Below, piece by piece: positions 1-42,323 of a stretch of DNA of 42,323 nucleotides (its first letter is position 1; each line of letters begins with the position of its first letter). Under the pieces are notes generated by a model. The model searched no databases, had not been told where the DNA came from, and saw only the letters and a list, made by a program, of their open reading frames with translations. The translations under genes were made by a program, and so were the position numbers. This stretch comes from Planctomycetaceae bacterium (GTDB lineage Bacteria > Planctomycetota > Phycisphaerae > Phycisphaerales > SM1A02). Where the stretch lies: assembly GCA_021297815.1 (NCBI GenBank), contig JAJTGK010000005.1:1-42323 (forward strand), in the 5' to 3' direction.

Positions 1-312
1 GAGGAGCCGTATCGGCCCGTCGTCGCGGCGGCCACCTCGATGCTCTTCGACTGCAACAACAACGGCCAGCTCGATACCGTCGAGATCGCCAACGGCGCTC
101 CCGACACCGACTCGGACGCGGTTCTCGACTCCTGCGAGTACGCGATCGGCGACCTCAACCTCAACGGCGTCATCGACCAGCAGGATCTCAGCATCCTCCT
201 GGGCTGGTGGGGCGTCCCGAACCCGCAGTTCGGCGACCTCAACTTCGACGGCGCGGTGAACGCGCTCGACCTCGGCATCATCCTCGGCCGCTTCGGCGTC
301 GTGGTGTACTGA
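1..312 (+). CDS. C-terminal end of a secreted dockerin-like protein (5' truncated)
   Basis: The reading frame is open from base 1 to a TGA at 310-312, so the true start lies outside the window. The visible 103 residues hold an Asn/Asp-rich calcium-type segment (DCNNNGQLD, then DTDSDAVLDSC) followed by two EF-hand-like dockerin loops, DLNLNGVIDQQDLSILLGWWG and DLNFDGAVNALDLGIILGRFG. This arrangement is typical of C-terminal tags on secreted planctomycete proteins. The part that would define the function is missing. The gene is followed 33 bases later by a strong intrinsic terminator. The dockerin-like assignment is by motif; what the tag binds is not known. Confidence 0.8.
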   Translation, partial: EEPYRPVVAAATSMLFDCNNNGQLDTVEIANGAPDTDSDAVLDSCEYAIGDLNLNGVIDQQDLSILLGWWGVPNPQFGDLNFDGAVNALDLGIILGRFGVVVY

Positions 313-345
313 TCCGCCGCGGTAGATCGCTGCAGCAACAACTCT

Positions 346-381
346 CGCGAGGCCGGCATGTCGCCGGCCTCGCGTGTTTTT
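346..381 (+). terminator. Rho-independent terminator after the dockerin-like gene
   Basis: A perfect 12-bp GC-rich stem (346-357 with 363-374) and a 5-base loop ATGTC are followed by TGTTTTT. It ends the transcript of the partial gene at 1-312 and isolates it from the Sel1 gene. Confidence 0.9.
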
Positions 382-441
382 AGGTTGTGTTCAGTCGGGC
401 GGGGCTTTCCGCGGAGGCGCTTCGCGCACACGCGGATCGGC

Positions 442-447
442 TATATC
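442..447 (+). promoter_or_regulatory. Candidate -10 box of a leaderless Sel1 transcript
   Basis: TATATC lies 7 bases before the chosen ATG at 455, and there is no Shine-Dalgarno sequence between them. A start site at the usual distance from this box would fall on or next to the ATG. No convincing -35 box is visible. Confidence 0.4.
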
Positions 448-454
448 TCGTCGC

Positions 455-1414
455 ATGACGCGCGCTTCCCTTCCGAACCTGATGCTCGCCGCGATTCTAG
501 GATCGGGGCTTTCCTCGACCAACTGCGTGGCGCAAAGCGAGGACGCGCCTCCCGTGGCGGAGCGCCCCGCGCAGGCCGACTCGCCCAAGACGCTGCGCGA
601 AAGGGCAGAGTCGGGGGACTTGGACGCGATGTACAGGCTCGCGGTCGCGTGCGCGCAGGGCCGCGCGGGAGAGTCCGCGCGCGCCGAGGCGATCGTGTGG
701 TACCGCCGCGCTGCCGAAGGTGGCCACGCGCCATCGATGGTGGTGGTCGGCTCGCGGCTCGCCCGCGGCGCCGATTGGAAGAAGGACGAGGTCGAGGCCG
801 CCAAGTGGTATCGCAAGGCGGCCGAGGCGGGCGATGCCACGGGCATGTTCATGTTCGCGGGCGCGTGCGCGCGCGGTGCGGGCGTTGCGAAGGACGAGGC
901 CGAGGCCGTGCGCTGGTACGAGCGCGCGGGAAAGCTCGGCGACGCGCGGTCGCTCACCAGCCTGGGAAGCATGCACGCCCTTGGCCGGGGCACGGCGCCC
1001 GATGTCGCGAAGGCGATCGAGTGCTACCGCGCCGCGGCGGACCTCGGCGATGCGCGCGCGATGTCGAACCTCGGAGCGCTCGCGCTTGAAGGCCGCGGGC
1101 TGCCGAAGGACGAGGTCGTGGCGATGGGATGGTTCGTGAAGGCCGCCGAACGCGGCGACGGCGATGCGATGCATCGGCTCGCGGTGATCCATGCATCTCG
1201 CGATGGCGGTGTTTCCGCGCGCGACGCGTGCTTCTGGGCGACTCTCGCCACCGTGCGTTGCAGGGGCAAGATGCTCGAGGAGGCGACGGTGTTGCGAGAC
1301 GCGTCCCGCGCGAAGCTCGACGAGGCGGCACGCCGCGAGGTCGACGACCGTGTGGCTGCTTGGAACGCGGCCCGAGCGCGGGGTGGCGCGACGACGGAAG
1401 CCGAAGCGCCGTGA
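455..1414 (+). CDS. Secreted Sel1-repeat protein (TPR-like)
   Basis: A 319-residue protein with an N-terminal export signal (MTRASLPNLMLAAILGSG...), a short linker, and six consecutive Sel1-type repeats from about residue 45 to 260. The repeats follow the pattern A-x-x-GD-x-x-AM-x-x-LG-x-x-x-A-x-G-x-G and end in W/Y-Y-x-(K/R)-A. Sel1 repeats form alpha-helical solenoids that scaffold protein-protein contacts, often at the envelope. I chose the ATG at 455 over the upstream GTG at 374, which lies inside the preceding terminator. The cysteine in SSTNC resembles a weak lipobox but does not fit the consensus, so lipidation is doubtful. A paralogous Sel1 protein lies at 11324-12472. The binding partner is unknown. 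Confidence 0.85.
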   Translation: MTRASLPNLMLAAILGSGLSSTNCVAQSEDAPPVAERPAQADSPKTLRERAESGDLDAMYRLAVACAQGRAGESARAEAIVWYRRAAEGGHAPSMVVVGSRLARGADWKKDEVEAAKWYRKAAEAGDATGMFMFAGACARGAGVAKDEAEAVRWYERAGKLGDARSLTSLGSMHALGRGTAPDVAKAIECYRAAADLGDARAMSNLGALALEGRGLPKDEVVAMGWFVKAAERGDGDAMHRLAVIHASRDGGVSARDACFWATLATVRCRGKMLEEATVLRDASRAKLDEAARREVDDRVAAWNAARARGGATTEAEAP

Positions 1415-1435
1415 CGGATCAGGCGATCAACGACA

Positions 1436-1459
1436 AGCCGCGCCTATGGAGGCGCGGCT
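1436..1459. terminator. Putative bidirectional terminator between convergent genes
   Basis: A perfect 9-bp stem (1436-1444 with 1451-1459) and a 6-base loop lie between the stops of the plus-strand Sel1 gene and the minus-strand dockerin-like gene. Neither side has a long U-tract, so termination is inferred from the position and the stem. Confidence 0.55.
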
Positions 1460-1490
1460 CGTCGTGATTCGCGAGTTCGTTGGGCGTCGG

Positions 1491-1847
1491 TCAGCCGGCG
1501 CAGGCGCCCCAGGCGCCGAGCAGCACGGCGAGGTCGGAGCCGTCGGTGGTTCCGTTTCCCGTCACATCGGTCTGGCCGCCCAGACCCCAACCGCCAAGCA
1601 TGGTCGAAAGATCGGCTGCGTCGACGACGCCGTCGCAGTTGAAGTCCGTGGGGCAGCACGAAGGCGAGGAACCGCCACCGCCCGCGCGGAAGGTGACCGA
1701 CTGGAAGTCGTCGTTTGCCGGCATGTCGCGCTTGGCAGCGGTGGGGGCCATCTGGCCCGAGGCCTTCGAATCGCCCTTCTCCGCGTACGCGGTGAACGAA
1801 ACGACGGCGGCGAAACCAAGAAGGACGATGGTGCTGAACTTCGACAT
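1491..1847 (-). CDS. Small secreted dockerin-like protein
   Basis: A 118-residue protein consisting of a clear signal peptide (MSKFSTIVLLGFAAVVSFTAYA), a short linker of about 45 residues ending in GGGGSSPSCC, and two dockerin-like calcium loops (DFNCDGVVDAADLSTMLGGWG and DVTGNGTTDGSDLAVLLGAWG). It ends in GACAG. Apart from the tag there is almost no other domain. The ATG at 1847 is chosen because GAGGAG stands just upstream on the coding strand and the signal peptide starts there; the frame is open further upstream but without such features. It could be a small surface adaptor carrying only the calcium module. No enzymatic motif is visible. Confidence 0.8.
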   Translation of the reverse strand: MSKFSTIVLLGFAAVVSFTAYAEKGDSKASGQMAPTAAKRDMPANDDFQSVTFRAGGGGSSPSCCPTDFNCDGVVDAADLSTMLGGWGLGGQTDVTGNGTTDGSDLAVLLGAWGACAG

Positions 1848-1979
1848 CGGGGTCTCCTCGCGGGCTGGACGCGCCCACTCTTTCTGGAAATTAGCCCATG
1901 AGTCGGTCGGACACAACCCAGAAGGCCGAGTTTTTCGAGGATTCGCCGGTCGCACGAGCGGTCGAAGCACCAGCGAGAT

Positions 1980-2011
1980 GACTCGCGGGAGTCGACCGTC
2001 AAGGGTATTCT
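1980..2011 (+). promoter_or_regulatory. Candidate leaderless promoter with upstream hairpin for the alpha-galactosidase
   Basis: TATTCT at 2006-2011 stands 6 bases before the ATG at 2018, without a Shine-Dalgarno sequence. A small inverted repeat (GACTC-GCGG-GAGTC, 1980-1993) sits just upstream, where an operator could lie. This is inferred from pattern only. Confidence 0.4.
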
Positions 2012-2017
2012 CGGACT

Positions 2018-3862
2018 ATGAATCCCTGTGTGACCCTCGATCTCGCATCGTTTCGGTCCCTCGCAGTCGCACTCGCCCTTGCCGTCGTGCAACCCGCACT
2101 CGGCGGAGCTGGCCACCTCGGCGACCTTGTCGCGCGGATTCGCGCTTCGTCGCCTGCCGTCACAGCCTCGGCGCCCGCGGGAGATACCGCGACGATCGAT
2201 GTCGCGACACGCTGGCAGGGGGAAGAGGCGGTGGTCACGGTACGAAACCGCGGCTCGGCGCCGATGGCATTGTCGGAGGTCGTGCTCTTCGACCTCGAGC
2301 ACGGGCTTCCTGCGGAGACGGCGTATTACGGCGAAGGCCTGCAGATGCTCGCGCAGTACGGCGGATCGCTGGTGGCGCCTGTCGACTACGGCGAGTACCC
2401 CGACCGTTCGCACTACCGCTTGCCCGAGCCCGAGGGGTTCCGCCGCGTGTACTCGATGGCGTTGCTCGAGCCGTCGGATGCGCCGCAGGTGCTGCTCGGC
2501 TTCACCTCATGCCGCAGGTTCGTGGGTGCGTTCGACCTTTCGCCCACGCGCCTGCGCTGCACGATCGACCTTGAAGGCACGGTGATTCCCGCAGGTACGG
2601 AGCTTGCGCTCGAAGGTCTGCTCGTGCGCGAGGGCAGCGACCGCGCGCAGCTGCTCGGCGACCTCGCGGCTCGCCTCGCGCGCGCGCACCCGCGCACGGC
2701 ATGGCCCGCGCCGCCGACGGGCTGGTGCTCGTGGTACTGCTTCGGCCCGCGGGTCACGGCGCAGGATGTGCTGTCGAACCTGGCGGCGATCAACCGCGAC
2801 TACCGTGACCTCGAGTTCGTGCAGATCGACGACGGATACCAGCCCACGATGGGCGACTGGCTCGACACAGGCCCTGGGTTCGGCGGTCGGCCGGTGCAGG
2901 AGATCCTGCGCGAGATCCGCGCGCAGGGCCGCGAGCCCGCGATCTGGGTGGCGCCGTTCGTCGCAAGCCCCGATTCGAAGCTCCTGCGCGAGCATCCGTC
3001 GTGGTTCGTGCGTGGCGACGACGGCAAGCCGATGCCCAGCGACCGCGTGATGTTCGGCGGCTGGCGCCTCGGGCCGTGGTTCGTGCTCGACGGCACGAAC
3101 CCCGAGGTGCAGGCGCATTTCGAGCAGCTGTTCGCCACGATGCGCCGCGAGTGGGGCGTGCGCTACTTCAAGCTCGACGCGATCTTCTGGGGCATGATGC
3201 ACGGCGGCCAGCGCTCCGACCGCGCGGCGACGCGCGTCGAGGCCTATCGGCTCGGCATGCAGGCGATCCGCCGCGGCGCGGGCGCCGACGCGTACATCCT
3301 GGGCTGCAACCACCCGATCTGGCCGTCGCTCGGGCTGATCGACGGCTCGCGCAGTTCGCTCGACATCGAGCGGCGCTGGCACAGCGTGTCGCGCACGGGC
3401 CGCGAGAACCTGCTGCGCGCATGGCAGAACGGCACGCTCTGGTGGAACGACCCCGATGCGTTCGTGCAGACGGGGCTGCCCGACAACGAGGCACGGTTCC
3501 ATGCGACGCTGATCCACGCGACGGGTGGCGCGGCGCTGTCGGGCGACGACCTGCCGCAGGTCCCCGCGGCACGGACAGGGGTCATGCGCCTGCTGTCGCG
3601 GCCCACGGGCGTGGCGGCACGCTTCGCCGATCTCTCGCTCTCGGTCGGCACCATGCCGCTTGCGGGCGGCGCGGTACGGCATGCGCTCTTCAACTGGAGC
3701 GATGCACCTGTGGAGCGCACGATCGCGCTTCCAGAGCGCAGCCGCGTGCGCGACCTGCTGACGGGCGAGGACCTCGGCGTGCATGAAGGTCGCTTGACGC
3801 GTGCGCTCGGTGCGCGCGATGCGGCGCTGCTCGAGTCGACGCCCGCGCCGGATGCGCGCTGA
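2018..3862 (+). CDS. GH36-like alpha-galactosidase (clan D), exported
   Basis: A 614-residue protein with an N-terminal hydrophobic signal (LAVALALAVVQPALGGA), a beta-rich N-terminal region to about residue 230, and a TIM-barrel region with clan GH-D motifs. WCSWYCFG and FVQIDDGYQP open the barrel, IWVAPFVA follows, and YFKLDA carries Asp387, the expected nucleophile. LIDGSRSSLD carries Asp442, the expected acid/base. The 55-residue spacing between the two Asp residues is close to that known in GH36 enzymes. A C-terminal beta domain follows (about 520-614). The expected role is hydrolysis of alpha-galactosides or related sugars outside the cytoplasm; the exact substrate cannot be read from sequence. 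It stands as a single gene between the dockerin-like gene and the histidine kinase. Confidence 0.85.
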   Translation: MNPCVTLDLASFRSLAVALALAVVQPALGGAGHLGDLVARIRASSPAVTASAPAGDTATIDVATRWQGEEAVVTVRNRGSAPMALSEVVLFDLEHGLPAETAYYGEGLQMLAQYGGSLVAPVDYGEYPDRSHYRLPEPEGFRRVYSMALLEPSDAPQVLLGFTSCRRFVGAFDLSPTRLRCTIDLEGTVIPAGTELALEGLLVREGSDRAQLLGDLAARLARAHPRTAWPAPPTGWCSWYCFGPRVTAQDVLSNLAAINRDYRDLEFVQIDDGYQPTMGDWLDTGPGFGGRPVQEILREIRAQGREPAIWVAPFVASPDSKLLREHPSWFVRGDDGKPMPSDRVMFGGWRLGPWFVLDGTNPEVQAHFEQLFATMRREWGVRYFKLDAIFWGMMHGGQRSDRAATRVEAYRLGMQAIRRGAGADAYILGCNHPIWPSLGLIDGSRSSLDIERRWHSVSRTGRENLLRAWQNGTLWWNDPDAFVQTGLPDNEARFHATLIHATGGAALSGDDLPQVPAARTGVMRLLSRPTGVAARFADLSLSVGTMPLAGGAVRHALFNWSDAPVERTIALPERSRVRDLLTGEDLGVHEGRLTRALGARDAALLESTPAPDAR

Positions 3863-3998
3863 GCGGGCGGCGCGCGCCTGACGGGCGCATTCCCCATTTC
3901 ACCGACGATCGCGCGTGGAACGCCTTTGCGGCGCCACTTCGGTGCACATCATCCGTAGTCCGCCTCAGCAGCGCGTTCGGCGCGCCGATGGTTGGCGA

Positions 3999-4014
3999 GA
4001 CGGCCGCGGCCGTC
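3999..4014. promoter_or_regulatory. 16-bp perfect palindrome upstream of the kinase gene
   Basis: GACGGCCGCGGCCGTC is a perfect two-fold palindrome 35 bases before the chosen ATG of the histidine kinase. It could be an operator or only a GC-rich chance palindrome. No U-tract follows it, so it is not a terminator. Confidence 0.35.
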
Positions 4015-4048
4015 CATCGCCGGGCGGGGTGCAGCGGATACCGAATCC

Positions 4049-7417: not shown

Positions 7418-7790
7418 CGACGAGAAGGTTCTGTCGCAGGTGCTTGCGATTCGCCTGCGCGCCGCGGGGTACCTTGCGTCGACGGCGAACAGCGGGCTCG
7501 AGGGCCTGCTGTCGGCCCAGGAGTCGCGCCCCGACGCGATCGTGCTCGATGTGCGCATGCCCGACATGGACGGATTCGAGGTGCATGCGCGTCTCAAGCA
7601 GAATCCGCATCTTTCCGCGATCCCCGTGGTGTTCCTCAGTGCGAATGTACAGGACAGCGCGCGGCACTCCGCCCTTGCGGCGGGCGCCTCGGCCTACCTC
7701 ACGAAGCCATACGACCCGCACGAGGTGATCGCCACGGTGCACGACGCCATCGTGCGGGGAAAGGGAGCAAGGAGCGTGGCACATGCATAG
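7392..7790 (+). CDS. Stand-alone receiver (CheY-like) response regulator 1
   Basis: A 132-residue protein made only of a receiver domain. Acidic residues Asp9/Asp10, phospho-acceptor Asp53 in VLDVRMP, Ser83 in FLSAN and Lys105 in TKPYD are all in place. No output domain is present, so it probably passes phosphate or binds a partner rather than DNA. The start ATG lies inside the end of the kinase gene, with GGAGCAAGG just before it. Its last 8 bases overlap the start of the next receiver gene. The likely phosphodonor is the adjacent kinase, by context. Confidence 0.9.
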   Translation: MPYRVLVIDDEKVLSQVLAIRLRAAGYLASTANSGLEGLLSAQESRPDAIVLDVRMPDMDGFEVHARLKQNPHLSAIPVVFLSANVQDSARHSALAAGASAYLTKPYDPHEVIATVHDAIVRGKGARSVAHA

Positions 7791-21664: not shown

Positions 21665-22208
21665 GACGCTCTCCTCGGAAACAGTCCCGACCGTCACGCT
21701 GCGTGAAAGCAGAGTTTGGGACCCGTGACGGACCGAAAATGAACTCTCGACCGCTCCAGGGACGTCTGGAGCGGCCTCTGAAGGTCGATCAGAAACTGCC
21801 CTCAGGCAAACCGCAGGGCCGATTCGGGGCGAAAACGCGTGACAAAGTTGTGGAGTGATCGGAACCTGCCTGCGCGGTCGATCGGCGAGAGGCGACGATC
21901 GCGCGGGCAGGTGTGTCGAATAATCGTGTCTCCGAAGCGCGCGTGGTATCGGTCGCATCGATGCGTCGCGCGGTTCGATCGACGATGAGTATGAGGTCGG
22001 CCCCGCGAATGATTTGGCGAAACGTGCCGTTCGGAAGGTTTCGTTCTCCGATAACTCGGCGCGCGCAGCAGAGCGAGTCCTGCGATCGATGCGATCTGTG
22101 ACGGCTTCGCGGGTTTCGATGCGTCGCGAATGCGCCGCGCCGGTTTGCGCGGCGCCGAAGACGGGCGCAGAATCCGTTGCTTCGACCGCCTAGACAAAGA
22201 GGAGAACG
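21665..22208. other. Divergent intergenic region with several inverted repeats, no gene seen
   Basis: These 544 bases separate the divergent genes at 21664 (minus) and 22209 (plus). They hold a 9-bp hairpin at 21751-21774, an imperfect longer one at 21864-21912, a 12-bp palindrome CGCATCGATGCG at 21954-21965, and a perfect 9-bp hairpin at 22132-22155. A 13-base direct repeat TCGATGCGTCGCG stands at 21958-21970 and 22116-22128. The only two ACGT tetranucleotides I found in the window lie here (21762 and 22022). Short open frames exist but carry no recognisable protein. It probably contains both promoters and regulator sites. Confidence 0.6.
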
Positions 22209-29800: not shown

Positions 29801-29954
29801 GATCTGCGAGCGCAAGTTCGAGCCGACGACACGCTCGGCGGTGAAGGCTGGCGACCCGTATGCGCCGATCTGGGGCCTTGGCCTGCGCGGCATCGACGAC
29901 GACGAGTCGGCGGGTGGTGAAGACGGTGGCGAAGAGAGCGGGGGTGGGGAATGA
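26877..29954 (+). CDS. AddB-like PD-(D/E)XK nuclease with degenerate helicase region
   Basis: A 1025-residue cytoplasmic protein. The first about 700 residues look like an inactivated superfamily I helicase: there is no GxGKT Walker A, only VLVPAGRLARAV where it would be. SVTKFKDYLKCPYLFLLRHH opens the C-terminal nuclease domain, whose active site is RGRIDRID followed by ALDYKSS (Asp878, Lys880). QLPLYRHLL is the usual following helix. The four-Cys iron-sulfur set of classical AddB is not evident. ATG 26877 has GGAGAGAGG about 10 bases upstream; ATG 26832 is an alternative. The stop overlaps the next gene's start (ATGA). Together they should process DNA double-strand ends for recombination. 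Confidence 0.87.
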   Translation: MDAQTARFTTTELDAALPLSEALARVVLSGVPRDGSVLDLERTMVLVPAGRLARAVERRLLAAARAQGVPLIAPSLVTPALFVKRFVRPTRPVLGDLGARLSWREAVWEYASRGAAERAQLGQIFGPVQSRADIDAGRAVSEASLATIARRLQALARDAAGAMRSFGEISQAVSQGSLGAASDDAQGRLRARWECLAAIEKIRGSLLEKAKVCDRGELQRDAVRAGGAAVVRGDLERLVVLFADPEPVQRELLRALEREGVSVEVCVHARRDVDGEGFPIAEAWSARRFSEVEVPSSAILVADGPDEVADAAVEVVASLPEPRTTEQVALVACEDEMRAALARALAARGVAVAADGRRPMSTTRLGMLVERLAALFGRDGGAPKPEALAEFVRHPDAEARFASTRKDGLRAVQECMVASYRATTLAADWSDAAPEAVHEARAYDALRARVLRVVEPLEAPRAAHSWAEPLRTALAAIVRNDRSGPEGERVETVRLLDRVLGELSEVPAEFAHALGPNEALALVAGELAKLEVSGDRVHGVDPIGWLDAGVADEPNLVFCGFNDGLIPEGAVVDPLLPDAWRAELGMPSSRRRAARDAWILDSILSRRPNARGVRFIVSRRSAEGDPMKPSRFLLQATGDALAERVKLLFGELPPRAPEADAGDALGALGAAPRGQAFIKTPPPAVELPPFTAISVTKFKDYLKCPYLFLLRHHPSLSLEVRDEEVAELDAAGFGSLLHTVLEDWGRREAERPDPTADEDVIRAELDAILDLVARDNFPRSRRAAVRVQIELARQRLSRFATIQAKEAADGWHVRFVELEFDERSSGDAARNDGVVRLGAVKLAAEPLGTLPAGTSILLRGRIDRIDFNKKLGRWRALDYKSSSKGASPASEHFSPRSKSWKDLQLPLYRHLLSQISAEDRAAHGIDEPILLDDTGIGYVVLGSSVAATRFSFLSETKQPLDLDDAVREAKRIVAAICERKFEPTTRSAVKAGDPYAPIWGLGLRGIDDDESAGGEDGGEESGGGE

Positions 29955-32900
29955 CGCAGGGAGACGATGTGAACTCGCGGGCTGTGCCTGCGCCCTACAT
30001 GCGGTCGATCGCGATCGCGAACGCGGGCTCGGGCAAGACCTTCACGCTCGCGAACCGCGTCATCGCGTGGTCGGTGGCCGAACTGCGCGCGGGCCGCGCG
30101 CCCGAGCCTGAGCGGCTGCTGGCGGTGACCTTCACGCGCAAGGCGGCGGCCGAGATCCTGGCGCGCGTGCTGCTGCACGCGGCGCGCGGGGCGCTCGACG
30201 CGTCGGCGCGGCAGGAGTTTGGCGCGCTGCTTGGCGCGGGCGAGCCTGTGCCGACGGCCGAGGAGTACCGCAAGGTGCTCGAGGCGCTGTGCGCGTCGCT
30301 CCATCGCCTGTCGATCGGCACGATCGACGGCTACTTCCACCGCGTGGCGTCGGCGATGCCCGCCGAACTCGGCCTTCCGCCCGAATGGACGGTGGGCGAC
30401 CCCGCCGAACTCGCCGAATTGCGCGCGGAAGTGGCGGCCGATCTGCTTGGCCACGAGCGCGCGGCGGAGTTCATCGCGCAGCTCGAGCTCGGTGCGCCCA
30501 AGGCTTCGGCCATGGCGGCGCTGCTCGAGGTGCTCGGCACCGAGCGCGGCGGGCGCACCTCGACGCAGAGCCTGCTCGACATCTATCGCGCGACCGTGAT
30601 GGGCGCGCGCGACGGTCGTGAACGCGACGAGCGTGTCGAGCGCGCATGGCACTGGGCCGCGCCGCTCGCCGAGGAGTACCCGCGGCTGTCGCGCGATGCG
30701 TGGGCCACGCTTGCCGAGCGACTCGAACGCGCGGATCTGCCGAGGAAGGACGACGGGACGCCGCGCGTCGTCTGGGAGAACGCGCGCACCAAGATCGCGG
30801 GCCTGCTGCGGCAGGGCGACTGCCTGCAGCTTGCCAAGGAGACCCTCATCGCGAACATCTCGCGGGGCGCGACCTTCGACAGGGTCGATGCTCCCGACGA
30901 GGTGAAGGTGCTCGTCGGTGAGATCGTCGCTGCGATGCGCGCCGAGTTCCTGCATCTGATCGCGCAGCGCATGGAGGCTGCGGCCGAAGTGCTTCCTGCC
31001 GCCGATGCGTCGCTGCGCGAGGCGCAGGCGGCGGGCGGCATGTACGGGTTCGGCGACCTGACCTCGCGCATCGCGTCGGCGTCGGCCGATGGTGCGCCGC
31101 TTTCCGACCCTGCGGCGGTTTCCGCGGCGCTCGGAGTGTCGGTGCGCGACCTCGCGATCGACGAGGCGCAGGACACGAGCGTCGACCAGTACCGTTCGCT
31201 GCTGCCGCTCGTGCGCGCGGTGCTCGCGGGCGGTGGCGAAGGCCGCTTCCTGCTGGTGGGCGACACGAAGCAGTCGATCTACGGCTGGCGCGGCGGAACA
31301 CCTGGCCTGGTCGAGGCGATCCGCGACGAGTTCGAGCATGCGCTCGGAGCCGACGAGAGGCTTGCGGTGAGCTACCGCTCGTCGCCGCTCGTGCTTGGGT
31401 TCGTGAACACGGTGTTCGGCGATCTCGCGAAGACGCTCGTGCCGCTGGCGCGGCCCGACGATGCGGAGGAGCTGGTCGAGCTCGCGTCGTTCGTCGACAA
31501 GCGCGGCCTGCAGCCGAGCTTCACCGCGAATCCGCTCGCGCGCGCCGTGGCGCAATGGAAGTTCGAGCGCCACGAGGCGGCGAAGGACCTGCCGGGCCGC
31601 GTCTACGCGTACCTCGTCGGAACCGAGAAGCCTGAGAAGCCCGCCGCGAAGAGCCGCAAGAAGAAGGGTGCCGATGACGCGGCGGCCGCCGACGCTCCAG
31701 GCGACGCCGCAACCCCCGCGGCACCTGCGCGCGAACCTGTCGAATTGCCGCCCGAGGAGTGCGCGGCGAGCATCGCCGAGCGCATTTCGCGCGAGTTTCC
31801 CGCGCGCACGGTGGCGATCCTGACCCGCACGAACAAGGAGGTCGCCGATGTGGTGGCGAAGCTCCGCGCGCGCGGCATCGACGCAAGCGACGAGGGCCGC
31901 TCGACGCTGCTCGATTCGCCTGCCGCGGTCGGCATCGTGATGCTGCTGCGGCTTGTCGACGACCCAGGCGACCGTGTCGCGCACTTCATGGTGTCGCGCG
32001 GTGCGATGGCCGCGGTGTCGGGGCTCAGGCCGGTCGAGTCGCACGCGTCGACCGCCGAGGCGCTCGATGCGGCGGCGGCGCTCGCGCGCACGCTGCGTGC
32101 CGAAGCCGTCGACCGCGGCCTGCCCGCGCTTGTCGGACGGCTTTCGGCCGCGCTTCTCGAGCAGGGTGTGTCGGCGCGCGACGCGCTGCGCCTCGGGCGC
32201 CTGCGCGCGATCGCCGAGCAGTTTGCGCTGCGCACGCCCGCACGCATGCGCGAGTATCTGCGCGCCGTCGAGCAGGACACCGCCGACGCAAGCTCGACCT
32301 GCAAGGTGCGCGTGATGACCGTGCACAAGTCGAAGGGCCTCGAGTTCGACGAGGTCGTGCTGCTTGCGCTCGACCAGGGATGGGGCCAGAAGCTCCCGAA
32401 CTGGGGCGTGCTCGCGAACGGGCCGAAGCACCCGCCCGCGCTCGTCGCGCCGCTCTGGAACGAAGAAGTGCGCCAGCGCGTGCCCGAACTCGAGCTGTTC
32501 GCGCGCGAAGAACGCCGTCGCCGCATGCTCGACGAACTGTCGGCGTTCTATGTGGCGCTGACCCGCGCGAAACACGGCATTCACCTCTTGTTCGACATCG
32601 CGTCGGTCGCCTCGGGTCCGTCGAGCGCGGAGCTGCTGAAGAGGGCGTTGGCGGCCTGCTCCGCGGCCAACGGCGATGCGGCAGAGGGGGCCGACACGCG
32701 CTTCGGCGGCTTCACCTCGGCCATCGCCGCGGTGTCGGTGCCTTCCGACGAGCCGTTCTGGAAGGTCGAGCACGCGGACACGGCGGCTGTCAGGGCGCCA
32801 GGTCATCGCGCGGCCGCGCCACGCAGCACGCTTTCAGGAGACGCATTGCTGGCGCCCGGCCGCCGCGCGCAGGTTGCCGCGGCACCATCGTCTGCCGCAG

Positions 32901-33553
32901 GCGGCGGCGGCACCGAGCCGCAGGAAGGCGGCGATGGCGACGAGGCCGCGTCGGAGCCGACCGAACTGCCACTCTGGGCCCTGAGCCCCTTCGATGACGG
33001 CGACATCGCGCTGCGCGGCGTGCTCGTGCACGAGTGCTTCCGCGACATGCGCGCCATCGACGAGTTCGCCAGTGCCGCCGCGCGCACCGCGGCGGTGGCT
33101 GCGGCCACGGCCCGCGCCGAGGTCGACAAGTGCGAGCCCGTGGCTGCGGGCCTGGCAAGCGAAGTCGAGGAACTGCTCGCGCAGCTCGCGTCACCCGCGA
33201 GCGCCGTCGGCCGCACGCTGCGCCCTTCCGACCGCGAGACGGTGCGCGCCGAAGTGCCGTTCGTCTCGGAACGCGCCGACGGGTCGCTCATCCGCGGCCG
33301 CATCGACCGCCTCGTGCTGCGCGTCGAGCAGGGCCGCGTGGTGGGCGCCCACATCATCGACTTCAAGACAGGCGCGAAGAAGCACTCGCGCGCGCGCATG
33401 CAGGCGCTCGTCGAGCACTACGGCGAGCAACTCGCCGCCTACCAAGCGGCGGTGGCGGCGCTGTGGAGCCTCGATCCGAGCACCGTCACCGCCGCGCTTC
33501 TCTTCGTCGACCGCGACGAGGTGGTCGAACTCGGCGCGCTCGCCACCGCGTGA
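29951..33553 (+). CDS. AddA-like UvrD-family helicase-nuclease
   Basis: A 1200-residue protein with a full set of superfamily I helicase motifs: Walker A ANAGSGKT (23-30), VTFTRKAAAE, DEAQDTS (from Asp404), LLVGDTKQSIYGWRGG, VRVMTVHKSKGLEFDEVVL and YVALTRAKHGIHLL. At the C-terminus is a RecB-type nuclease site, RGRIDRL then IIDFKTG (Asp1137), with a QLAAYQAAV helix. A Lys/Ala/Pro-rich low-complexity linker lies at about 555-600 and a Gly/Ala-rich one near 970-1000. It begins inside the stop of the AddB-like gene (ATGA), so the two are translationally coupled and surely work as one complex in end resection. Two adjacent nuclease sites, one per subunit, match the AddAB plan rather than RecBCD. 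Confidence 0.92.
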   Translation: MTQGDDVNSRAVPAPYMRSIAIANAGSGKTFTLANRVIAWSVAELRAGRAPEPERLLAVTFTRKAAAEILARVLLHAARGALDASARQEFGALLGAGEPVPTAEEYRKVLEALCASLHRLSIGTIDGYFHRVASAMPAELGLPPEWTVGDPAELAELRAEVAADLLGHERAAEFIAQLELGAPKASAMAALLEVLGTERGGRTSTQSLLDIYRATVMGARDGRERDERVERAWHWAAPLAEEYPRLSRDAWATLAERLERADLPRKDDGTPRVVWENARTKIAGLLRQGDCLQLAKETLIANISRGATFDRVDAPDEVKVLVGEIVAAMRAEFLHLIAQRMEAAAEVLPAADASLREAQAAGGMYGFGDLTSRIASASADGAPLSDPAAVSAALGVSVRDLAIDEAQDTSVDQYRSLLPLVRAVLAGGGEGRFLLVGDTKQSIYGWRGGTPGLVEAIRDEFEHALGADERLAVSYRSSPLVLGFVNTVFGDLAKTLVPLARPDDAEELVELASFVDKRGLQPSFTANPLARAVAQWKFERHEAAKDLPGRVYAYLVGTEKPEKPAAKSRKKKGADDAAAADAPGDAATPAAPAREPVELPPEECAASIAERISREFPARTVAILTRTNKEVADVVAKLRARGIDASDEGRSTLLDSPAAVGIVMLLRLVDDPGDRVAHFMVSRGAMAAVSGLRPVESHASTAEALDAAAALARTLRAEAVDRGLPALVGRLSAALLEQGVSARDALRLGRLRAIAEQFALRTPARMREYLRAVEQDTADASSTCKVRVMTVHKSKGLEFDEVVLLALDQGWGQKLPNWGVLANGPKHPPALVAPLWNEEVRQRVPELELFAREERRRRMLDELSAFYVALTRAKHGIHLLFDIASVASGPSSAELLKRALAACSAANGDAAEGADTRFGGFTSAIAAVSVPSDEPFWKVEHADTAAVRAPGHRAAAPRSTLSGDALLAPGRRAQVAAAPSSAAGGGGTEPQEGGDGDEAASEPTELPLWALSPFDDGDIALRGVLVHECFRDMRAIDEFASAAARTAAVAAATARAEVDKCEPVAAGLASEVEELLAQLASPASAVGRTLRPSDRETVRAEVPFVSERADGSLIRGRIDRLVLRVEQGRVVGAHIIDFKTGAKKHSRARMQALVEHYGEQLAAYQAAVAALWSLDPSTVTAALLFVDRDEVVELGALATA

Positions 33554-33554
33554 C

Positions 33555-36228: not shown

Positions 36229-39200
36229 ATGGCGTCTTCCAGAGTCGGATTCCTGCTCCTGACGGCCTCGATGGTGGGCCTCGGAGCCTTCGCCCTTGCG
36301 GGTCGCACACCCGTTGGAAGTTCGGCGTCGCCGCGCGGAAACGCTGCGGAATCGCCACTCGCCTCGACGCGGGAGCCCGTGCGATATGGCCGCGACATTC
36401 GGCCGATCCTCTCCGACCGCTGTTTCCTCTGTCATGGGCCTGACCGTGCGACGCAGCAGGCGGGGCTGCGCCTCGACAGCTTCGAGGCCGCGACTGCGGC
36501 GCGTGAGGATGGCGCGGCGATCGTGCCTGGAAAGCCCGACGAAAGCCTCATCTGGCATCGCATCAACTCGCACGACCCAGACGAGGTGATGCCGACGCCC
36601 GAAAGCAACAAGAAGCCGCTCTCCGTCGAGGAGCGCGAGCTCGTGCGCCGCTGGATCGAGCAGGGCGCGGCGTATGAAGACCACTGGTCGTTCGTCGCGC
36701 CCGCCGCGCACTCCGCGCCCGCGGTGCGCGATGCGGGCATGGTGCGCGGCGACATCGACCGCTTCGTGCAGGCGAAGCTCGAGTCGCTTGGAACCTCGAT
36801 GAGCGCCGAAGCCGATGCCGCCACGCTGGTGCGCCGGCTCTACCTCGATCTCACGGGCCTGCCGCCCACGCCCGAGGAGACGGACGCGTATCTCGCCGAC
36901 ACGCGCGAAGATCGCTACGAGCGCCTCGTCGACCGCCTGCTGACCGAGGAGCCGTACGCCACGCGCACCGCCGAGCGGCTGAGCGTGCCGTGGCTCGACC
37001 TTGCGCGCTACGCGGACACGAACGGCATCCACATGGACGCAGGCCGCCAGATGTGGCTCTGGCGCGACTGGGTCATCGAGGCGTTCCGCGCGAACAAGCC
37101 GTACGACCGCTTCATCGTGGAGCAGCTCGCGGGCGACCTGCTGCCTGGCGCCACGGTCGACAACCAGATCGCAAGCGGCTTCAACCGCGCGCATGTCATC
37201 ACCGACGAGGGCGGCGCGATCAACGAGGAGTACCTGCTCGAGTACGCGGTCGACCGCGTGAACACGACGGGCACCGCGTTCCTCGGCCTTTCGGTGGGCT
37301 GCGCGCGCTGCCACGACCACAAGTTCGATCCGATCACCGCCGAGGACTACTACTCGCTCATCGCGTTCTTCAACTCGAACGAGGAGCCTGGGCTCTATTC
37401 GCAGGCGCCCGATCCGTATCGCGCGTTCGAGCCCGCGATCGAGGTGCCGCGCGGCGCCGACAAGGAGCGGCTGTCGCTGCTCGCCGAGGCCGAGCAGCGC
37501 GCGCGCGCCGAGCAGGCGAGCGCGGGCGAGGCCGACCGCGCCGAGCTCGACGCGTTCGTCGGCTCGCTGCGCGAGGGCTTCTCGTTCGCGAAGTCGAGCG
37601 TGGTGCGCGCGTCGAGCGCGGCGGGCGCGACCATGACGGTGCAGCCCGACGGCTCGGTGCTCGCCGCGGGCGAGAACCCCGACGACGACGACCACGAGCT
37701 CGTGCTGCGCACCGACGCCACGGGGCTGCGCGCGCTCATGCTCGAGGCGATGACCGACCCCTCGCACGCGGCGAACCGCGTGGGCCGCGCGCCCAACGGC
37801 AATGCGGTGCTCGACTTCATCGAGGTCGAGGCGGTGTCGGTCGCCGATCCCTCGCGGCGCGAGAAGGTCGACCTCGTGTGGGCGTGGGCCGACTACGAGC
37901 AGGAGAACGGCGACTATCGCGCGGTGAACGCGCTGACCAAGGACGAAGGCCGCCAGTGGGCCGTGCGTTCGCACGAGGTCGACGGCCCGCGCGCGGCGAT
38001 CTTCGCGGCGGCGAAGCCCTTCGGCTTCGAGGGTGGCACCGAACTCGTGGTGCGCCTTCACTACAAGTCGCCGTATGCGAAGCACATCTTCGGCCGCGTG
38101 CGCCTGACGCCCGCGGCGGCAAGCGACGCGGCCATCGCGCGTCTTCCCGAGGCGACGAGCAGCTGGTACATCGCGGGCCCCGTGGTGGGCGCGCCAGGTG
38201 CCGCGTACGACGCCGAGTACGGGCCCGAGAAGGAAGCGACCTTCGTGCGCGGCAAGCGCTTCACGACCGCGGACGGCGCGAAGATCGAGTGGCGTCATGC
38301 TCCTGGCGTGGTCGACGGCCAGGCCGTGGGCCTTGCCGCGAGCGTGGGCGCCGAGTTCGTGGCGCGGCAGATCTACTCGCCCGATGCGCGCACGATCGAG
38401 CTTTCGCTTGGTTCGGACGACGGCATCGCGGTGTATCTGAACGGCCGCAAGGTGCATGAGAACCGCACCGCGCGCGCGGTTGCGCCCGACCAGGAGCGCG
38501 TGTCGCTGGCGCTCGAGCCTGGACAGAACTTCCTCGTGTGCAAGGTGGTGAACACGGGCGGACAGGCGGGTTTCTACGCGCGGCACCTGCCGCGCGAGGG
38601 CGCGCTCGACCGCGCGTCGGTGGCGCTGGTGGCGCCCGAGGGCTCGATGCGCGCCGCCGCCATCGAGGACGCGCGCAACGCATGGCGCATCCGCTTCTCG
38701 CCGAGCTACATCCGTGCGTCGCAGGAGATCGCGCGCGTCGAGCAGGAGCGCCAGCGCATCATCTCGTCGACGCCGAAGACGATGGTGATGAAGGAGCTCG
38801 CCATGCCGCGCGAGACCTTCGTGCACGAGCGCGGCGCGTACGACCACCCGAACCGCAGCCGCCCCGTGAAGCGCGCGGTGCCCGCGGTGCTCGGCCAGCT
38901 GCCCGAAGGCGCGGCGCAGAACCGCCTCGGCCTTGCCGAATGGCTTGTTTCGAAGGAAAATCCGCTCACCGCGCGTGTCGTGGTGAACCGTTTCTGGGAG
39001 ATGTTCTTCGGCAACGGCATCGTGCGCACGAGCGACGACTTCGGCCTGCAGGGCGAGTGGCCCGCGAACCCCGAGCTGCTCGACACGCTGGCCGTGCGCT
39101 TCCGCGACGGCGGCTGGAACATGCACGCGCTGATCACGGAGATCGTGACAAGCTCGGCCTACCGCCAGGCGTCGCGCGTGCGGCCCGAGCTCGCGGTGGC

Positions 39201-39867
39201 CGATCCGATGAACCGCCACCTGTCGCACTTCCCGCGCCAGAGGCTGACCGCGGAGCAGATCCGCGACCAGGCGCTGTATGTCGCGGGCATCCTGCGCGAG
39301 CAGCCGGGCGGCCCGAGCGTGAAGCCGTACCAGCCCGAGGGCCTCTGGCAGGAGGTCGCGATGCTGCAGTCGAACACGCGCATCTACGAGCAGGGGATGG
39401 GCGACGACCTCTGGCGCCGCAGCATGTACACCTATTGGAAGCGCGCTGCGCCGCCGCCGTCGCTCCTGACCTTCGATGCGCCGACGCGCGAGTTCTGCAC
39501 GCCGCGCCGCCTGACCACGAACACGCCGCTGCAGGCGCTCGTGCTGTGGAACGACCCGCAGTTCGTCGAGGCCGCGCGCGTGGCCGCCGAGCGCGTGCTG
39601 CGCGCCGAAGGCAACGACGCGACCCGCATGCGCGAGCTGTTCCGCCGCGCGACGGGCGAGGATCCGAGCGAGTCTGCGCGCACTGCCATGCAGGCGGCGC
39701 TCGACAAGAGCCGCGCGCGCTACAAGGCCGCGCCCGAGGACGCGATGAAGCTCGTCGAGATCGGCGAGGCGCCGCGCGCCGAAGGCGTCGACCCTGCGGA
39801 GCTCGCGGCGTGGACCATGCTTGCCAACGCGGTGCTCTCGAGCGACGCGACCATCGTGAAGGACTGA
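36229..39867 (+). CDS. Planctomycete PSCyt1/DUF1549/DUF1553 (PSD1) cytochrome protein
   Basis: A 1212-residue exported protein. The signal peptide leads to a cytochrome c-like PSCyt1 domain with haem motif CFLCH (Cys65, Cys68, His69). A DUF1549 domain (about 175-390) follows, with a second CxxCH in GCARCHDHKFDP (Cys358, Cys361, His362). A middle region of several hundred residues includes a PA14-like beta module (SLGSDDGIAVYLNGRKVHEN). The C-terminal DUF1553 domain (about 860-1190) contains RPVKRAVPAVL, NRFWEMFFGNGIV and RRLTTNTPLQALVLWNDPQF. This family is hugely expanded in planctomycetes; its reaction is not established. It is almost always followed by a DUF1501 gene, as here, 9 bases downstream, so the two proteins very likely act together outside the cytoplasm. 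Confidence 0.93.
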   Translation: MASSRVGFLLLTASMVGLGAFALAGRTPVGSSASPRGNAAESPLASTREPVRYGRDIRPILSDRCFLCHGPDRATQQAGLRLDSFEAATAAREDGAAIVPGKPDESLIWHRINSHDPDEVMPTPESNKKPLSVEERELVRRWIEQGAAYEDHWSFVAPAAHSAPAVRDAGMVRGDIDRFVQAKLESLGTSMSAEADAATLVRRLYLDLTGLPPTPEETDAYLADTREDRYERLVDRLLTEEPYATRTAERLSVPWLDLARYADTNGIHMDAGRQMWLWRDWVIEAFRANKPYDRFIVEQLAGDLLPGATVDNQIASGFNRAHVITDEGGAINEEYLLEYAVDRVNTTGTAFLGLSVGCARCHDHKFDPITAEDYYSLIAFFNSNEEPGLYSQAPDPYRAFEPAIEVPRGADKERLSLLAEAEQRARAEQASAGEADRAELDAFVGSLREGFSFAKSSVVRASSAAGATMTVQPDGSVLAAGENPDDDDHELVLRTDATGLRALMLEAMTDPSHAANRVGRAPNGNAVLDFIEVEAVSVADPSRREKVDLVWAWADYEQENGDYRAVNALTKDEGRQWAVRSHEVDGPRAAIFAAAKPFGFEGGTELVVRLHYKSPYAKHIFGRVRLTPAAASDAAIARLPEATSSWYIAGPVVGAPGAAYDAEYGPEKEATFVRGKRFTTADGAKIEWRHAPGVVDGQAVGLAASVGAEFVARQIYSPDARTIELSLGSDDGIAVYLNGRKVHENRTARAVAPDQERVSLALEPGQNFLVCKVVNTGGQAGFYARHLPREGALDRASVALVAPEGSMRAAAIEDARNAWRIRFSPSYIRASQEIARVEQERQRIISSTPKTMVMKELAMPRETFVHERGAYDHPNRSRPVKRAVPAVLGQLPEGAAQNRLGLAEWLVSKENPLTARVVVNRFWEMFFGNGIVRTSDDFGLQGEWPANPELLDTLAVRFRDGGWNMHALITEIVTSSAYRQASRVRPELAVADPMNRHLSHFPRQRLTAEQIRDQALYVAGILREQPGGPSVKPYQPEGLWQEVAMLQSNTRIYEQGMGDDLWRRSMYTYWKRAAPPPSLLTFDAPTREFCTPRRLTTNTPLQALVLWNDPQFVEAARVAAERVLRAEGNDATRMRELFRRATGEDPSESARTAMQAALDKSRARYKAAPEDAMKLVEIGEAPRAEGVDPAELAAWTMLANAVLSSDATIVKD

Positions 39868-39876
39868 GGAGGACCG

Positions 39877-41394
39877 ATGTCGAAGCACAAGATCACCGCA
39901 ACGCCCGCCGACGGACTCGAGGAGTACCTCCTCAACATGACGCGGCGCAGGTTCTTCGGAAATGTGGCGTCGACGATCGGCGCAGGCCTCGGCGGCGTGG
40001 CGCTCTCGAGCCTGCTCGGCCGCACCGCGTCGGCGTCGCCCGTCCTCGGCGCGAACGGCCTGCCTGCGGGCGATGTCGGCTTCCGCCCTGGGCCGCACTT
40101 CGCGCCCAAGGCGAAGCGCGTCATCTACATGCACATGGAGGGCGCGCCCAGCCAGCTCGACCTCTACGACTACAAGCCCGAGCTCGTGAAGCGCTTCGAC
40201 GAGGACCTGCCCGACAGCGTGCGCAACGGCCAGCGCATCACGGGCATGACGAGCGGCCAGTCGCGGTTCCCCGTCGCGCCGACCAAGTTCCGCTTCGACC
40301 GCTTCGACAACAACCAGGACGGCCTGTGGCTCTCCGAGCTGCTGCCGCACACGGGCAAGATCGCGAAGGACATGTGCCTCATCAACTCGATGCACACGCA
40401 GGCGATCAACCATGAGCCTGGCATCACCTTCTTCCAGACGGGCACCGAGCAGCCCGGCCGCCCGAGCTTCGGCTCGTGGATGAGCTACGGGCTCGGCAGC
40501 ATGAACGCGAACCTGCCGAGCTTCGTGGTGATGATCACGCAGGGCGTCGGCAACATGCAGGCGCTGAGCGCGCGCTTCTGGGGCAGCGGCTTCCTGCCGA
40601 GCGAGCACCAGGGCTGCCGCCTGCGCTCGGGCCGCGACGCGGTGCTCTTCCTGCGCGACCCCGACGGCGTGAGCCGCGAGGACCGCCGCGAGATGCTCGA
40701 CCTCGTGGGCAGGCTGAACGAGGAGGAGTTCGCCGAGAGCCTCGACCCCGAGGTGCGCGCGCGCATCGCGCAGCACGAGATGGCGTACCGCATGCAGATG
40801 TCGGTGCCCGAACTCACCGATTTCAGCGACGAAGACCCAGCCACGCTCGAGATGTACGGGCCCGATGTGCACAAGCCAGGGTCGTTCGCGGCGAACTGCC
40901 TGCTGGCGCGGCGACTGGCCGAACGGGATGTGCGATTCATCCAGCTCTACATGCGCGGCTGGGACCAGCACGGCAACCTGCCCGGCGAGCTCGGCGCGCA
41001 GGCGAAGGCGGTCGATCAGGCGCAGTCGGCGCTCGTGCAGGACCTCAAGCGCCGCGGCCTGCTCGACGAGACGCTCGTCCTCTGGGCGGGCGAGTTCGGC
41101 CGCACGGTGTACTCGCAGGGCCAGCTCTCGCGCGACAACTACGGCCGCGACCACCATCCGCGCTGCTTCTCGGTGTGGGTCGCGGGCGGCGGCTTCAAGG
41201 GCGGCATCACCTACGGCAAGACCGACGAGTACTCGTACAACATCGTCGAGAACCCAGTCGAGGTGCACGACCTGCACGCGACGATGCTGCATCTCCTTGG
41301 CCTGAACCACGAGCAGCTCGTCTACCGCGCGCAGGGCCGCGACTACCGCCTGACCGATGTGAAGGGCAAGGTCGTGCGCGACATCCTGGCGTGA
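39877..41394 (+). CDS. DUF1501 protein with Tat signal
   Basis: A 505-residue protein with a twin-arginine signal (MTRRRFFGNVASTIGAG) after an N-terminal extension of about 20 residues. The DUF1501 fold is related to sulfatases and alkaline phosphatases: VIYMHMEGAPSQLDLYDYKP near the start, MTSGQSRF, WDQHGNL, WAGEFGRTVYSQG and DHHPRCFSVWVAGGG later. These place the Asp/His metal-type residues expected for the superfamily, but the reaction is unproven. The start has AGGAGGA 4 bases upstream. It forms an operon with the PSCyt1/DUF1553 gene, the standard planctomycete pair. Confidence 0.93.
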   Translation: MSKHKITATPADGLEEYLLNMTRRRFFGNVASTIGAGLGGVALSSLLGRTASASPVLGANGLPAGDVGFRPGPHFAPKAKRVIYMHMEGAPSQLDLYDYKPELVKRFDEDLPDSVRNGQRITGMTSGQSRFPVAPTKFRFDRFDNNQDGLWLSELLPHTGKIAKDMCLINSMHTQAINHEPGITFFQTGTEQPGRPSFGSWMSYGLGSMNANLPSFVVMITQGVGNMQALSARFWGSGFLPSEHQGCRLRSGRDAVLFLRDPDGVSREDRREMLDLVGRLNEEEFAESLDPEVRARIAQHEMAYRMQMSVPELTDFSDEDPATLEMYGPDVHKPGSFAANCLLARRLAERDVRFIQLYMRGWDQHGNLPGELGAQAKAVDQAQSALVQDLKRRGLLDETLVLWAGEFGRTVYSQGQLSRDNYGRDHHPRCFSVWVAGGGFKGGITYGKTDEYSYNIVENPVEVHDLHATMLHLLGLNHEQLVYRAQGRDYRLTDVKGKVVRDILA

Positions 41395-41407
41395 GCACGC
41401 GCGACGC

Positions 41408-41572
41408 ATGCTCTCGATGATCCTCGACCTCTTCGCCACGCTCGTCGAAGCGGTCGTGGGCGCTTCGCAAGGGCCTCGTTCGCCGCGCTGGGCACGCGTG
41501 CTGTGGGTCGGGTGCTGCGTGCTGCTCGCGCTGGCCGCGGTCGCGGCCGTCGCCTACCCCATGTTCGCCTGA
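41408..41572 (+). CDS. Small single-span membrane protein (54 residues)
   Basis: A short frame 13 bases after the DUF1501 stop: a hydrophobic N-terminal helix (MLSMILDLFATLVEAVVG), a basic linker (SQGPRSPRWAR) and a transmembrane helix (about 31-51, VLWVGCCVLLALAAVAAVAY). Its tight spacing behind DUF1501 suggests membership of the operon. No clear ribosome site is seen and no family is recognised, so it could also be a chance frame. Confidence 0.5.
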   Translation: MLSMILDLFATLVEAVVGASQGPRSPRWARVLWVGCCVLLALAAVAAVAYPMFA

Positions 41573-41606
41573 CGGGTGACTGGGCTCGCGCCCAGCCGAT
41601 TCGCGG

Positions 41607-41622
41607 GAAACCGCTTCGTTTC
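41607..41622. repeat. 16-base inverted repeat, copy 2
   Basis: Identical to 34599-34614. It lies 54 bases before the ATG of the PreT/GltD-like gene, a plausible operator position. Confidence 0.5.
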
Positions 41623-41676
41623 ATTGTGGGCCTTTGCTAGGCTTTGGTTCGATAACGGGAGTTACCTCCCGACGCC

Positions 41677-42323
41677 ATGCCGCCCGTCCAACCCAGCCAG
41701 CGCTCCGAGAGCGCCTTCACCGACTTCAAGTTGCCGCTTCTGCGGGACGCGGCTGTGGCCGAGGCGAACCGCTGCCTCTTCTGCCACGACGCGCCGTGCA
41801 TCAAGGCGTGCCCCACCGCGATCGATATCCCGCAGTTCATCCGCAAGATCGCGTCCGACAATGTGCGTGGCTCGGCGAAGACGATCTTCGAGTCGAACAT
41901 CCTCGGGATGAGCTGCGCGCGCGTGTGCCCCGTCGAGGTGCTCTGCGTCGGCGCGTGCGTCTACAACGACCTCGAGCAGCCGCCGATCGAGATCGGCAAG
42001 CTGCAGCGCTACGCGACCGACGCCGCCTACGAGGCAGGCTGGCGCTTCTTCGAGGCGGGCAAGCCGACGGGGAAGCGCGTGGCCCTGATCGGCGCGGGCC
42101 CCGCGAGCCTGGCCGCGGCGCACGAGCTTCGGCGGTTCGGACACGCCTGCACGATCTTCGAGAAGCGCGCGGTCGTGGGCGGACTGAACGCGACGGGCGT
42201 CGCGCCCTACAAGATGCGCGCGGACCGCGCCATGACCGAGGTCGAGTGGGTGCTCTCGATCGGCGGCATCGAGGTGAAGACGGGCGTGGCGATCGGAACC
42301 GACATCGCGCTCGAGGCGCTCGA
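41677..42323 (+). CDS. PreT/GltD-like FeS-flavoprotein oxidoreductase (3' truncated)
   Basis: The frame is open to the window end; 215 codons are visible. The N-terminal ferredoxin-like domain has cysteines for two 4Fe-4S clusters: CLFCHDAPCIKACP (about 33-46) and CARVCPVEVLCVGAC (about 80-94). EIGKLQRYATD then leads to the FAD/NAD-binding motif VALIGAGPASLAAAHELRR and the following VVGGLNATGVAPYKM. This matches the small subunit type of glutamate synthase and the PreT subunit of NAD-dependent dihydropyrimidine dehydrogenase; the NILGMSCARVCPVEVLC wording fits the latter better. It would pass electrons from NAD(P)H through FAD and FeS clusters to a partner. A preA-like gene beyond 42323 would settle which. 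The ATG at 41677 has no strong ribosome site. Confidence 0.85.
   Translation, partial: MPPVQPSQRSESAFTDFKLPLLRDAAVAEANRCLFCHDAPCIKACPTAIDIPQFIRKIASDNVRGSAKTIFESNILGMSCARVCPVEVLCVGACVYNDLEQPPIEIGKLQRYATDAAYEAGWRFFEAGKPTGKRVALIGAGPASLAAAHELRRFGHACTIFEKRAVVGGLNATGVAPYKMRADRAMTEVEWVLSIGGIEVKTGVAIGTDIALEAL

Follow-up and report, generated by a model that had tools for sequence, protein, structure and literature searches.

The DNA considered here, referred to as the window, is a stretch of 42,323 nucleotides (positions 1–42323) that constitutes a complete contig (C86) of a draft genome, G000 (3,032,785 bases in 180 contigs, 88% complete). Judged by RpoB likeness, its uncultured source is a planctomycete of the order Phycisphaerales, the nearest relatives (72–73% identical) being drafts titled Phycisphaerales or Phycisphaera. 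The feature under study is the near-absence of the palindrome ACGT from the window and its 22 predicted genes, accompanied by depletion of a second palindrome, CCGG (Table 1). ACGT occurs twice, at 21762 and 22022, where a maximal-order Markov model predicts 126.4 occurrences and base composition 118; 100 dinucleotide-preserving shuffles of the window yield 158.9 (standard deviation 12.3). Inside the predicted genes a single copy is found against 105.3 in 200 synonymous-codon shuffles, whose minimum is 90, and these shuffles rule out an artefact of the Markov model. An earlier reading made from the letters of the window (the sequence-only reading) had located ACGT at the same two positions and put the expectation at about a hundred; counting confirms the former, and several null models, ranging from 105.3 to 158.9, the latter. 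Its remark that TCGA and GCGC are not avoided is likewise borne out (562 against 475 and 1199 against 1132 in the window). CGCG, GATC, and CATG also stand at normal levels; CTAG occurs 4 times against 17 expected.

Table 1. Features of the window, with coordinates counted from its first nucleotide
Feature	Position	Strand	Basis or context
Near-absence of ACGT (2 vs 126 expected) and depletion of CCGG (43 vs 303)	1..42323		Word counts
Residual ACGT 1	21762..21765		Loop of an inverted repeat with 9-base arms (by eye); inside a predicted minus-strand open reading frame, near its 5′ end
Residual ACGT 2	22022..22025		Between predicted genes
Aspartate-valine as GAT-GTG, enforced codon choice	31847..31852	+	In frame of open reading frame 29951-33553, frame from its start

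The avoidance is reflected in codon choice, as assessed in 21 pieces of G000 including the window (303 kb, 196 predicted genes). Before GT, a codon of the form NAC is used for aspartate in 3 of 243 cases, for asparagine in 2 of 107, for histidine in 1 of 95, and for tyrosine in 1 of 75, compared with 84%, 93%, 77%, and 89%, respectively, in other contexts. Threonine before T is encoded by ACC 377 times, by ACA 29 times, by ACT 22 times, and by ACG once among 429 codons, whereas before other bases ACG accounts for 2163 of 3847 codons (ACC 1487, ACA 101, ACT 96). The non-avoiding relative G003 has ACG at 86 of 249 threonines before T and GAC at 130 of 164 aspartates before GT. The sequence-only reading had described the same habits, namely NAT for aspartate, histidine, asparagine, and tyrosine ahead of valine and ACC for threonine before T, and they hold on the 21 pieces. 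Among its GAT-GTN examples, the one at 31847 is correct to the base and in frame, while those given as 7546 and 8390 really lie at 7548 and 8391, the latter falling outside the genes called by the gene finder.

Twenty further contig stretches of G000 (261 kb) hold 14 ACGT where 737.8 are expected, which rules out contamination or an artefact of the window. In 348 kb of sampled DNA from this genome the count is 34 against 994, and the whole genome contains 24 copies of GACGTC as opposed to 1591 of the reversed word CTGCAG, which serves as its control. Flanking bases are without effect on the depletion of either ACGT or CCGG, so that a longer recognition word is ruled out as well. Non-coding DNA is depleted as strongly as genes (7 ACGT against 177 expected), three of the seven lying in the transfer-messenger RNA (tmRNA). 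Depletion of a palindrome over the chromosome that is word-specific and independent of its flanks has the properties by which restriction-site avoidance is recognized. CCGG, which the sequence-only reading had not mentioned, is a second purged palindrome: 43 copies are present against 303 expected in the window and 409 against 1948.5 in the 20 other stretches, about 0.2 of expectation genome-wide. Its loss from proline codons before G leads to CCC and CCT; the deamination product CCA accounts for 113 of 1869 replacements and is proportionally rarer there than in other contexts. Ahead of GG, codons of the form NCC give way mainly to NCG, and NCT, which deamination would produce, also gains in share (0.099 against 0.062), compared with 0.082 against 0.058 in the non-avoider G003.

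Among 16 genomes of the genus, GACGTC occurs at 8 per Mb in G000 and at 17, 20, 24, 36, 45, and 76 per Mb in the next, followed by values from 167 to 627. Ratios of observed to expected ACGT range from 0.03 to 1.10 in samples of 19 to 348 kb, and the seven genomes at or below 0.37 (G000, G013, G006, G009, G010, G007, and G004) are termed avoiders. The CCGG ratio is 0.21 to 0.38 in G000, G004, G009, and G013; no other sample in the genus falls below 0.4. In an rpoB tree from which G006 and G008 are absent, in which four others are partial, and of which some inner nodes are weakly supported, avoiders stand at four places: G000 with G004, G013 with G007, G009, and G010, the last as sister to the non-avoiders G005, G011, and G002. 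Eight ACGT sites in rpoB, present in the majority of 16 outgroup genomes from the family, were taken as ancestral. They are kept in full in G012 (8/8), at 7 of 8 in G003, G001, and G011, at 6 of 7 in G005, at 4 of 4 in G014, and at 5 of 8 in G015 and G004, and the one site readable in G002 is kept; the count is 1 of 8 in G000, 2 in G013, 1 in G007, 1 in G009, and 0 in G010. Since the clearest non-avoiders retain the ancestral ACGT, their ancestry apparently never included an avoiding stage; avoidance would then have arisen within the genus, this one gene suggesting at least four separate origins. The sequence-only reading had proposed long-lasting selection against ACGT acting through codon choice. 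The proportions of replacement codons, the losses at orthologous sites given below, and the depletion of non-coding DNA support the selection; the long duration in the lineage seems at odds with rpoB.

The same word recurs throughout the order. Across 301 genomes, for which rounded genome sizes were used and in some of which the control may itself be avoided, GACGTC falls below 20 per Mb in 20 and below 50 in 39, compared with 1 and 2 genomes for CTGCAG. Strong avoiders, defined by fewer than 30 GACGTC per Mb and less than 0.15 of the CTGCAG count, number 25 in 12 genera, distributed as 5 of 117 genomes in family f1, 20 of 117 in f2, 0 of 51 in f6, and 0 of 16 in the rest; five genera contain both avoiders and non-avoiders. 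Counts on individual stretches agree, with 0 ACGT against 74, 70, 44, 27, and 24 expected in the avoiders G178, G161, G144, G218, and G253, respectively, 1 against 24 in G106, 1 against 96 in G266, 3 against 39 in G288, and 7 against 47 in G220. Non-avoiders show 62 against 81 (G214) and 105 against 147 (G255), both from the genus of G161, G144, and G288, as well as 63 against 77 (G038) and 82 against 82 (G024). G038 belongs to another family of the order and avoids another palindrome, with only 50 CTGCAG in 3.0 Mb. In 80 rpoB loci from titled records of many phyla, the ACGT ratio is below 0.2 in 4 of 79 testable loci, a frequency exceeded among palindromes by CTAG only (8 of 29), and the values split into two groups, at or below 0.21 and at or above 0.59. 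Loci L096, L110, L116, L126, and L159, titled Phycisphaera, Singulisphaera, Planctomycetota, Spartobacteria, and Deltaproteobacteria, have ratios of 0.00 to 0.21.

Much of the ACGT that remains in G000 is clustered. Nine copies against 24 expected lie on a contig (C165) bearing a cut-off type I methyltransferase gene, four within palindromic repeats on contig C130, four on the rpoB contig, three in the tmRNA gene (L014 16223-16575), and one in a tRNA-Arg. The tmRNA copies are perhaps retained since structure forbids change. A palindromic repeat built on GTGCCTGGCAC occurs twice at L279 7811-8010; its copies retain CACGTG, which gives four ACGT in a genome otherwise purged. Stretches that bear methyltransferase genes keep ACGT in G004 (C14, 32 against 29) and G007 (C23, 14 against 21), as does a stretch of G010 with a type I system (C480, 22 against 57); contig C2 of G010 likewise has 14 against 23. 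They are read as putative recently acquired DNA, an interpretation weakened for the first of them by G004 being a partial avoider overall. The survival of these unpurged stretches shows that ACGT is tolerated in the cell. In two G004 stretches, the rpoB region holds 28 of the 33 ACGT, nearly all in the NAC-before-GT frame, and threonine before T is encoded by ACG in 0 of 55 cases. This suggests an intermediate state in which codon preference in highly expressed genes works against the purge, and it is hard to square with relaxation.

Methyltransferase genes were sought through five families (PF00145, PF01555, PF02086, PF07669, and PF02384). PF00145 is present in 6 of the 16 genus genomes (3 of 7 avoiders, 3 of 9 others) and absent from G000, G013, G010, and G006, while PF02086 occurs in 2 of 16 (1 of 7 avoiders, by a partial match, and 1 of 9 others). 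PF01555, searched in 41 genomes, gives a strong match (E <1e-30) in 6 of 16 (2 of 7 avoiders, 4 of 9 others) as well as, among the matches listed, a further whole-profile match in the non-avoider G002 (E 2e-16) and weaker ones elsewhere. None of these three families tracks avoidance within the genus. The strongly matching PF01555 gene (L218 5394-6452, orthologues in L219–L223) adjoins, in the same order in those 6 genomes, a gene of 215 amino acids that we take to resemble upp. Extra strong matches to PF02384 or PF07669 are found in 4 of 7 avoiders (G000, G004, G006, and G010) and in a single one of the 9 others (G011), an imbalance possibly due to chance; those in G000, G006, and G010 are of type I or DISARM type. 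The G006 gene at L292 6083-9970 is a DISARM-type methyltransferase, DrmMI, by PADLOC.

PF07669 and PF02384 also retrieve an adenine methyltransferase that each of the 16 genus genomes carries. This core enzyme is related to M.BseCI and weakly to M.TaqI and to a protein that is presumably CamA. Its neighbor, which we take to be rplT, is called in 6 of 12 neighborhoods and placed by hit coordinates in most others; the G006 contig lacks it. The gene (L277 1405-3039; L279–L290) looks like an orphan N6-adenine methyltransferase, and its copies are 46–58% identical to that of G000, compared with 89–93% for full-length RpoB matches within the genus. Present in avoiders and non-avoiders alike, it does not explain their difference. 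Searched as an alignment (A1) in 75 genomes of the order, 32 with fewer than 50 GACGTC per Mb and 43 with at least 128, it is matched at E <1e-70 in 7 of the former and 11 of the latter. No match at this level is found in the four most extreme avoiders, G161, G178, G144, and G196; the fifth, G288, has one. With no association across the order, it is rejected as the cause.

How the word disappeared can be read from orthologous sites that carry ACG before T in at least one of nine genomes avoiding the word weakly or not at all; targets are pooled, and counts are not independent. At these sites G000 has ACC 36 times, ACA once, ACT once, and ACG twice; G013 has ACC 52, ACT 9, ACA 0, and ACG 6; G007 has ACC 47, ACT 22, and neither ACA nor ACG; and G009 is mixed (ACC 15, ACT 20, ACA 17, ACG 3). 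The control non-avoiders read ACG 28, ACC 20, ACT 1 (G003) and ACG 25, ACC 23, ACT 4 (G012). G000 retains ACG at 2 of 40 such sites against 337 of 470 elsewhere, and NAC at 16 of 182 sites where relatives have it before GT against 2456 of 2745 elsewhere. Mutational decay, in which 5-methylcytosine within ACGT deaminates to give ATGT or ACAT, has been proposed for Helicobacter pylori, where changes in the same word are described as leaning heavily to these two products (PMC10423294). Such decay would turn ACG before T into ACA; G000 shows ACC, which indicates that the loss was not by deamination. Nor do the remaining threonine codons shift in G000, with ACA, ACC, and ACT at 29:377:22 before T and 101:1487:96 elsewhere (p 0.77; Fisher p 0.57 for ACA). 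Codon usage in G009, G007, G178, and G288 is mildly enriched in ACA before T, and that of G013 shows the reverse (1 ACA among 68 threonines before T). ACAT is raised in G000 (1.53, compared with 1.26 in G003), as is expected because ATGT is the sole synonymous exit from NAC before GT; for the same reason the rise of ATGT does not discriminate selection from deamination. Where a synonymous alternative exists, changes in G000 and G013 are not concentrated in ATGT and ACAT as in H. pylori, with G009 again mixed. Given also the four avoiders without a PF00145 gene, decay is very improbable as a general account, and for G000 it is already largely refuted. The loss there, synonymous and alike in coding and non-coding DNA, looks like selection rather than mutation bias, with log-odds of selection of about 6.3 for threonine before T and 6.1 for NAC before GT. 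Selection at the RNA level, for instance by a ribonuclease cutting ACGU, has nothing direct in its favor and is at odds with the equal depletion of non-coding DNA, though part of that DNA is transcribed or contains missed genes; it is the least probable of the explanations considered.

Selective removal of a four-base palindrome suggests a type II restriction system, and the agent is probably, if by no means securely, a type II restriction-modification system that cuts ACGT and has been acquired repeatedly in Phycisphaerales. Its methyltransferase would make N6-methyladenine or N4-methylcytosine and not 5-methylcytosine; incomplete self-protection would leave every ACGT slightly harmful, so that substitutions removing it would be favored in double-stranded DNA, coding and non-coding. 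The genes would be missing from the G000 draft or have since been lost. Restriction-modification, already suggested by the sequence-only reading, stays the best guess, although the five families yielded no candidate type II methyltransferase in the 88% complete G000 (nucleases, type III, Dam, and EcoRI-type enzymes were not searched). Several observations weigh against it. G000 has no match to PF00145 or PF02086, its best PF01555 match among those listed (1.5e-10) covers positions 159–215 of 221, and its PF07669 and PF02384 matches are the core adenine methyltransferase and a type I subunit fragment. G013, 96% complete in about 30 contigs, avoids both ACGT and CCGG (0.07 and 0.21), yet the matches listed for it consist of two inherited methyltransferases plus weaker hits. 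Recurrence of the same word has no explanation, and ACGT-bearing stretches with restriction genes survive, so that such DNA is not kept out. Certain observations would suit some other ACGT-directed agent without a classical type II pair, such as a solitary nuclease, an unrecognized defense system, or a modified-base system: no cognate methyltransferase appears in the families searched, none of the PF00145, upp-adjacent PF01555, PF02086, and core adenine genes follows avoidance in the genus, the possibly fortuitous skew of extra PF02384 and PF07669 matches leans toward avoiders, and one word recurs in 12 genera. As no such agent has been identified, nucleases and further methyltransferase families lay beyond the search, and the methyltransferase for a methylated motif is said to be often lacking in drafts (PMC9426551), this alternative is possible but unlikely. 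Less probable still is the ghost of a lost restriction-modification system, in which selection has ceased but the word is still to reappear; this idea overlaps with the repeatedly acquired system, whose genes may likewise have been lost, so that the odds do not add up to one. It would fit G013, with two palindromes avoided and no visible cognate gene, and recovery after loss is said to be slower even than avoidance (PMC4687349); against it, the absence of ACG at all 55 threonines before T in the two G004 stretches, where NAC-before-GT sites are occupied, is unlike general relaxation, and each of many lineages would need to have lost the system. A bolder version, which we regard as doubtful, is that an unrecognized ACGT-directed system other than a conventional 5-methylcytosine pair spreads through Phycisphaerales, perhaps also through more remote bacteria, stripping ACGT from each genome it enters; ACGT density would then record its history and mark recently acquired DNA.

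Avoidance of restriction sites in host genomes was reportedly described by Gelfand and Koonin in 1997. It is treated as well known by Rusinov et al. (2015, PMC4687349), whose account likewise concerns short palindromes depleted in the chromosome to an extent that varies between relatives; the present case differs from that account in the 30- to 60-fold depletion, the repeated purging of one word in one order, and the lack of a cognate system found. H. pylori avoids the same word, the site of HpyCH4IV, with a whole-genome ratio of 0.05 by composition (PMC3849833), and its density is described as differing between populations without following the methyltransferase (PMC3849833, PMC10423294). Recent evolution of ACGT in that species (methyltransferase M.Hpy99XI) is ascribed largely to deamination at a 5-methylcytosine site (PMC10423294), whereas here threonine ACG before T becomes ACC; Phycisphaerales thus apparently share the word and not the deamination route. 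Halobacteria keep another four-base palindrome, CTAG, rare for reasons given as not known, but according to PMC6471742 all genomes avoid it and a cognate orphan CTAG methyltransferase is widespread, while ACGT avoidance switches within a genus. No report of palindrome or ACGT avoidance in planctomycetes appears among the matches listed from the open-licence literature, and ACGT and CCGG are not in the main text of the lake papers checked. The avoidance is strong, selection-driven, and recurrent; its novelty lies in the instance and in the natural experiment that it offers, not in its kind. The genus and the order supply close relatives with and without avoidance, several apparent origins, and a codon test by which selection and deamination can be told apart. 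The speed at which a restriction site is purged from a host genome, and the agent responsible, thereby become open to study. The ACGT content of Phycisphaerales genomes may, in addition, serve as a marker of recently acquired DNA. Should closed genomes of strong avoiders hold no restriction system, a new kind of agent would have to be sought.

The open reading frame at 29951-33553 of the window encodes UvrD-type helicase and PD-(D/E)XK nuclease domains and is presumably AddA-like. Because matches to this protein are mostly 44–50% identical, it was dropped as a syntenic anchor, and rpoB and other loci were used instead. Its matches in G012 and G007 contain one in-frame TGA each.

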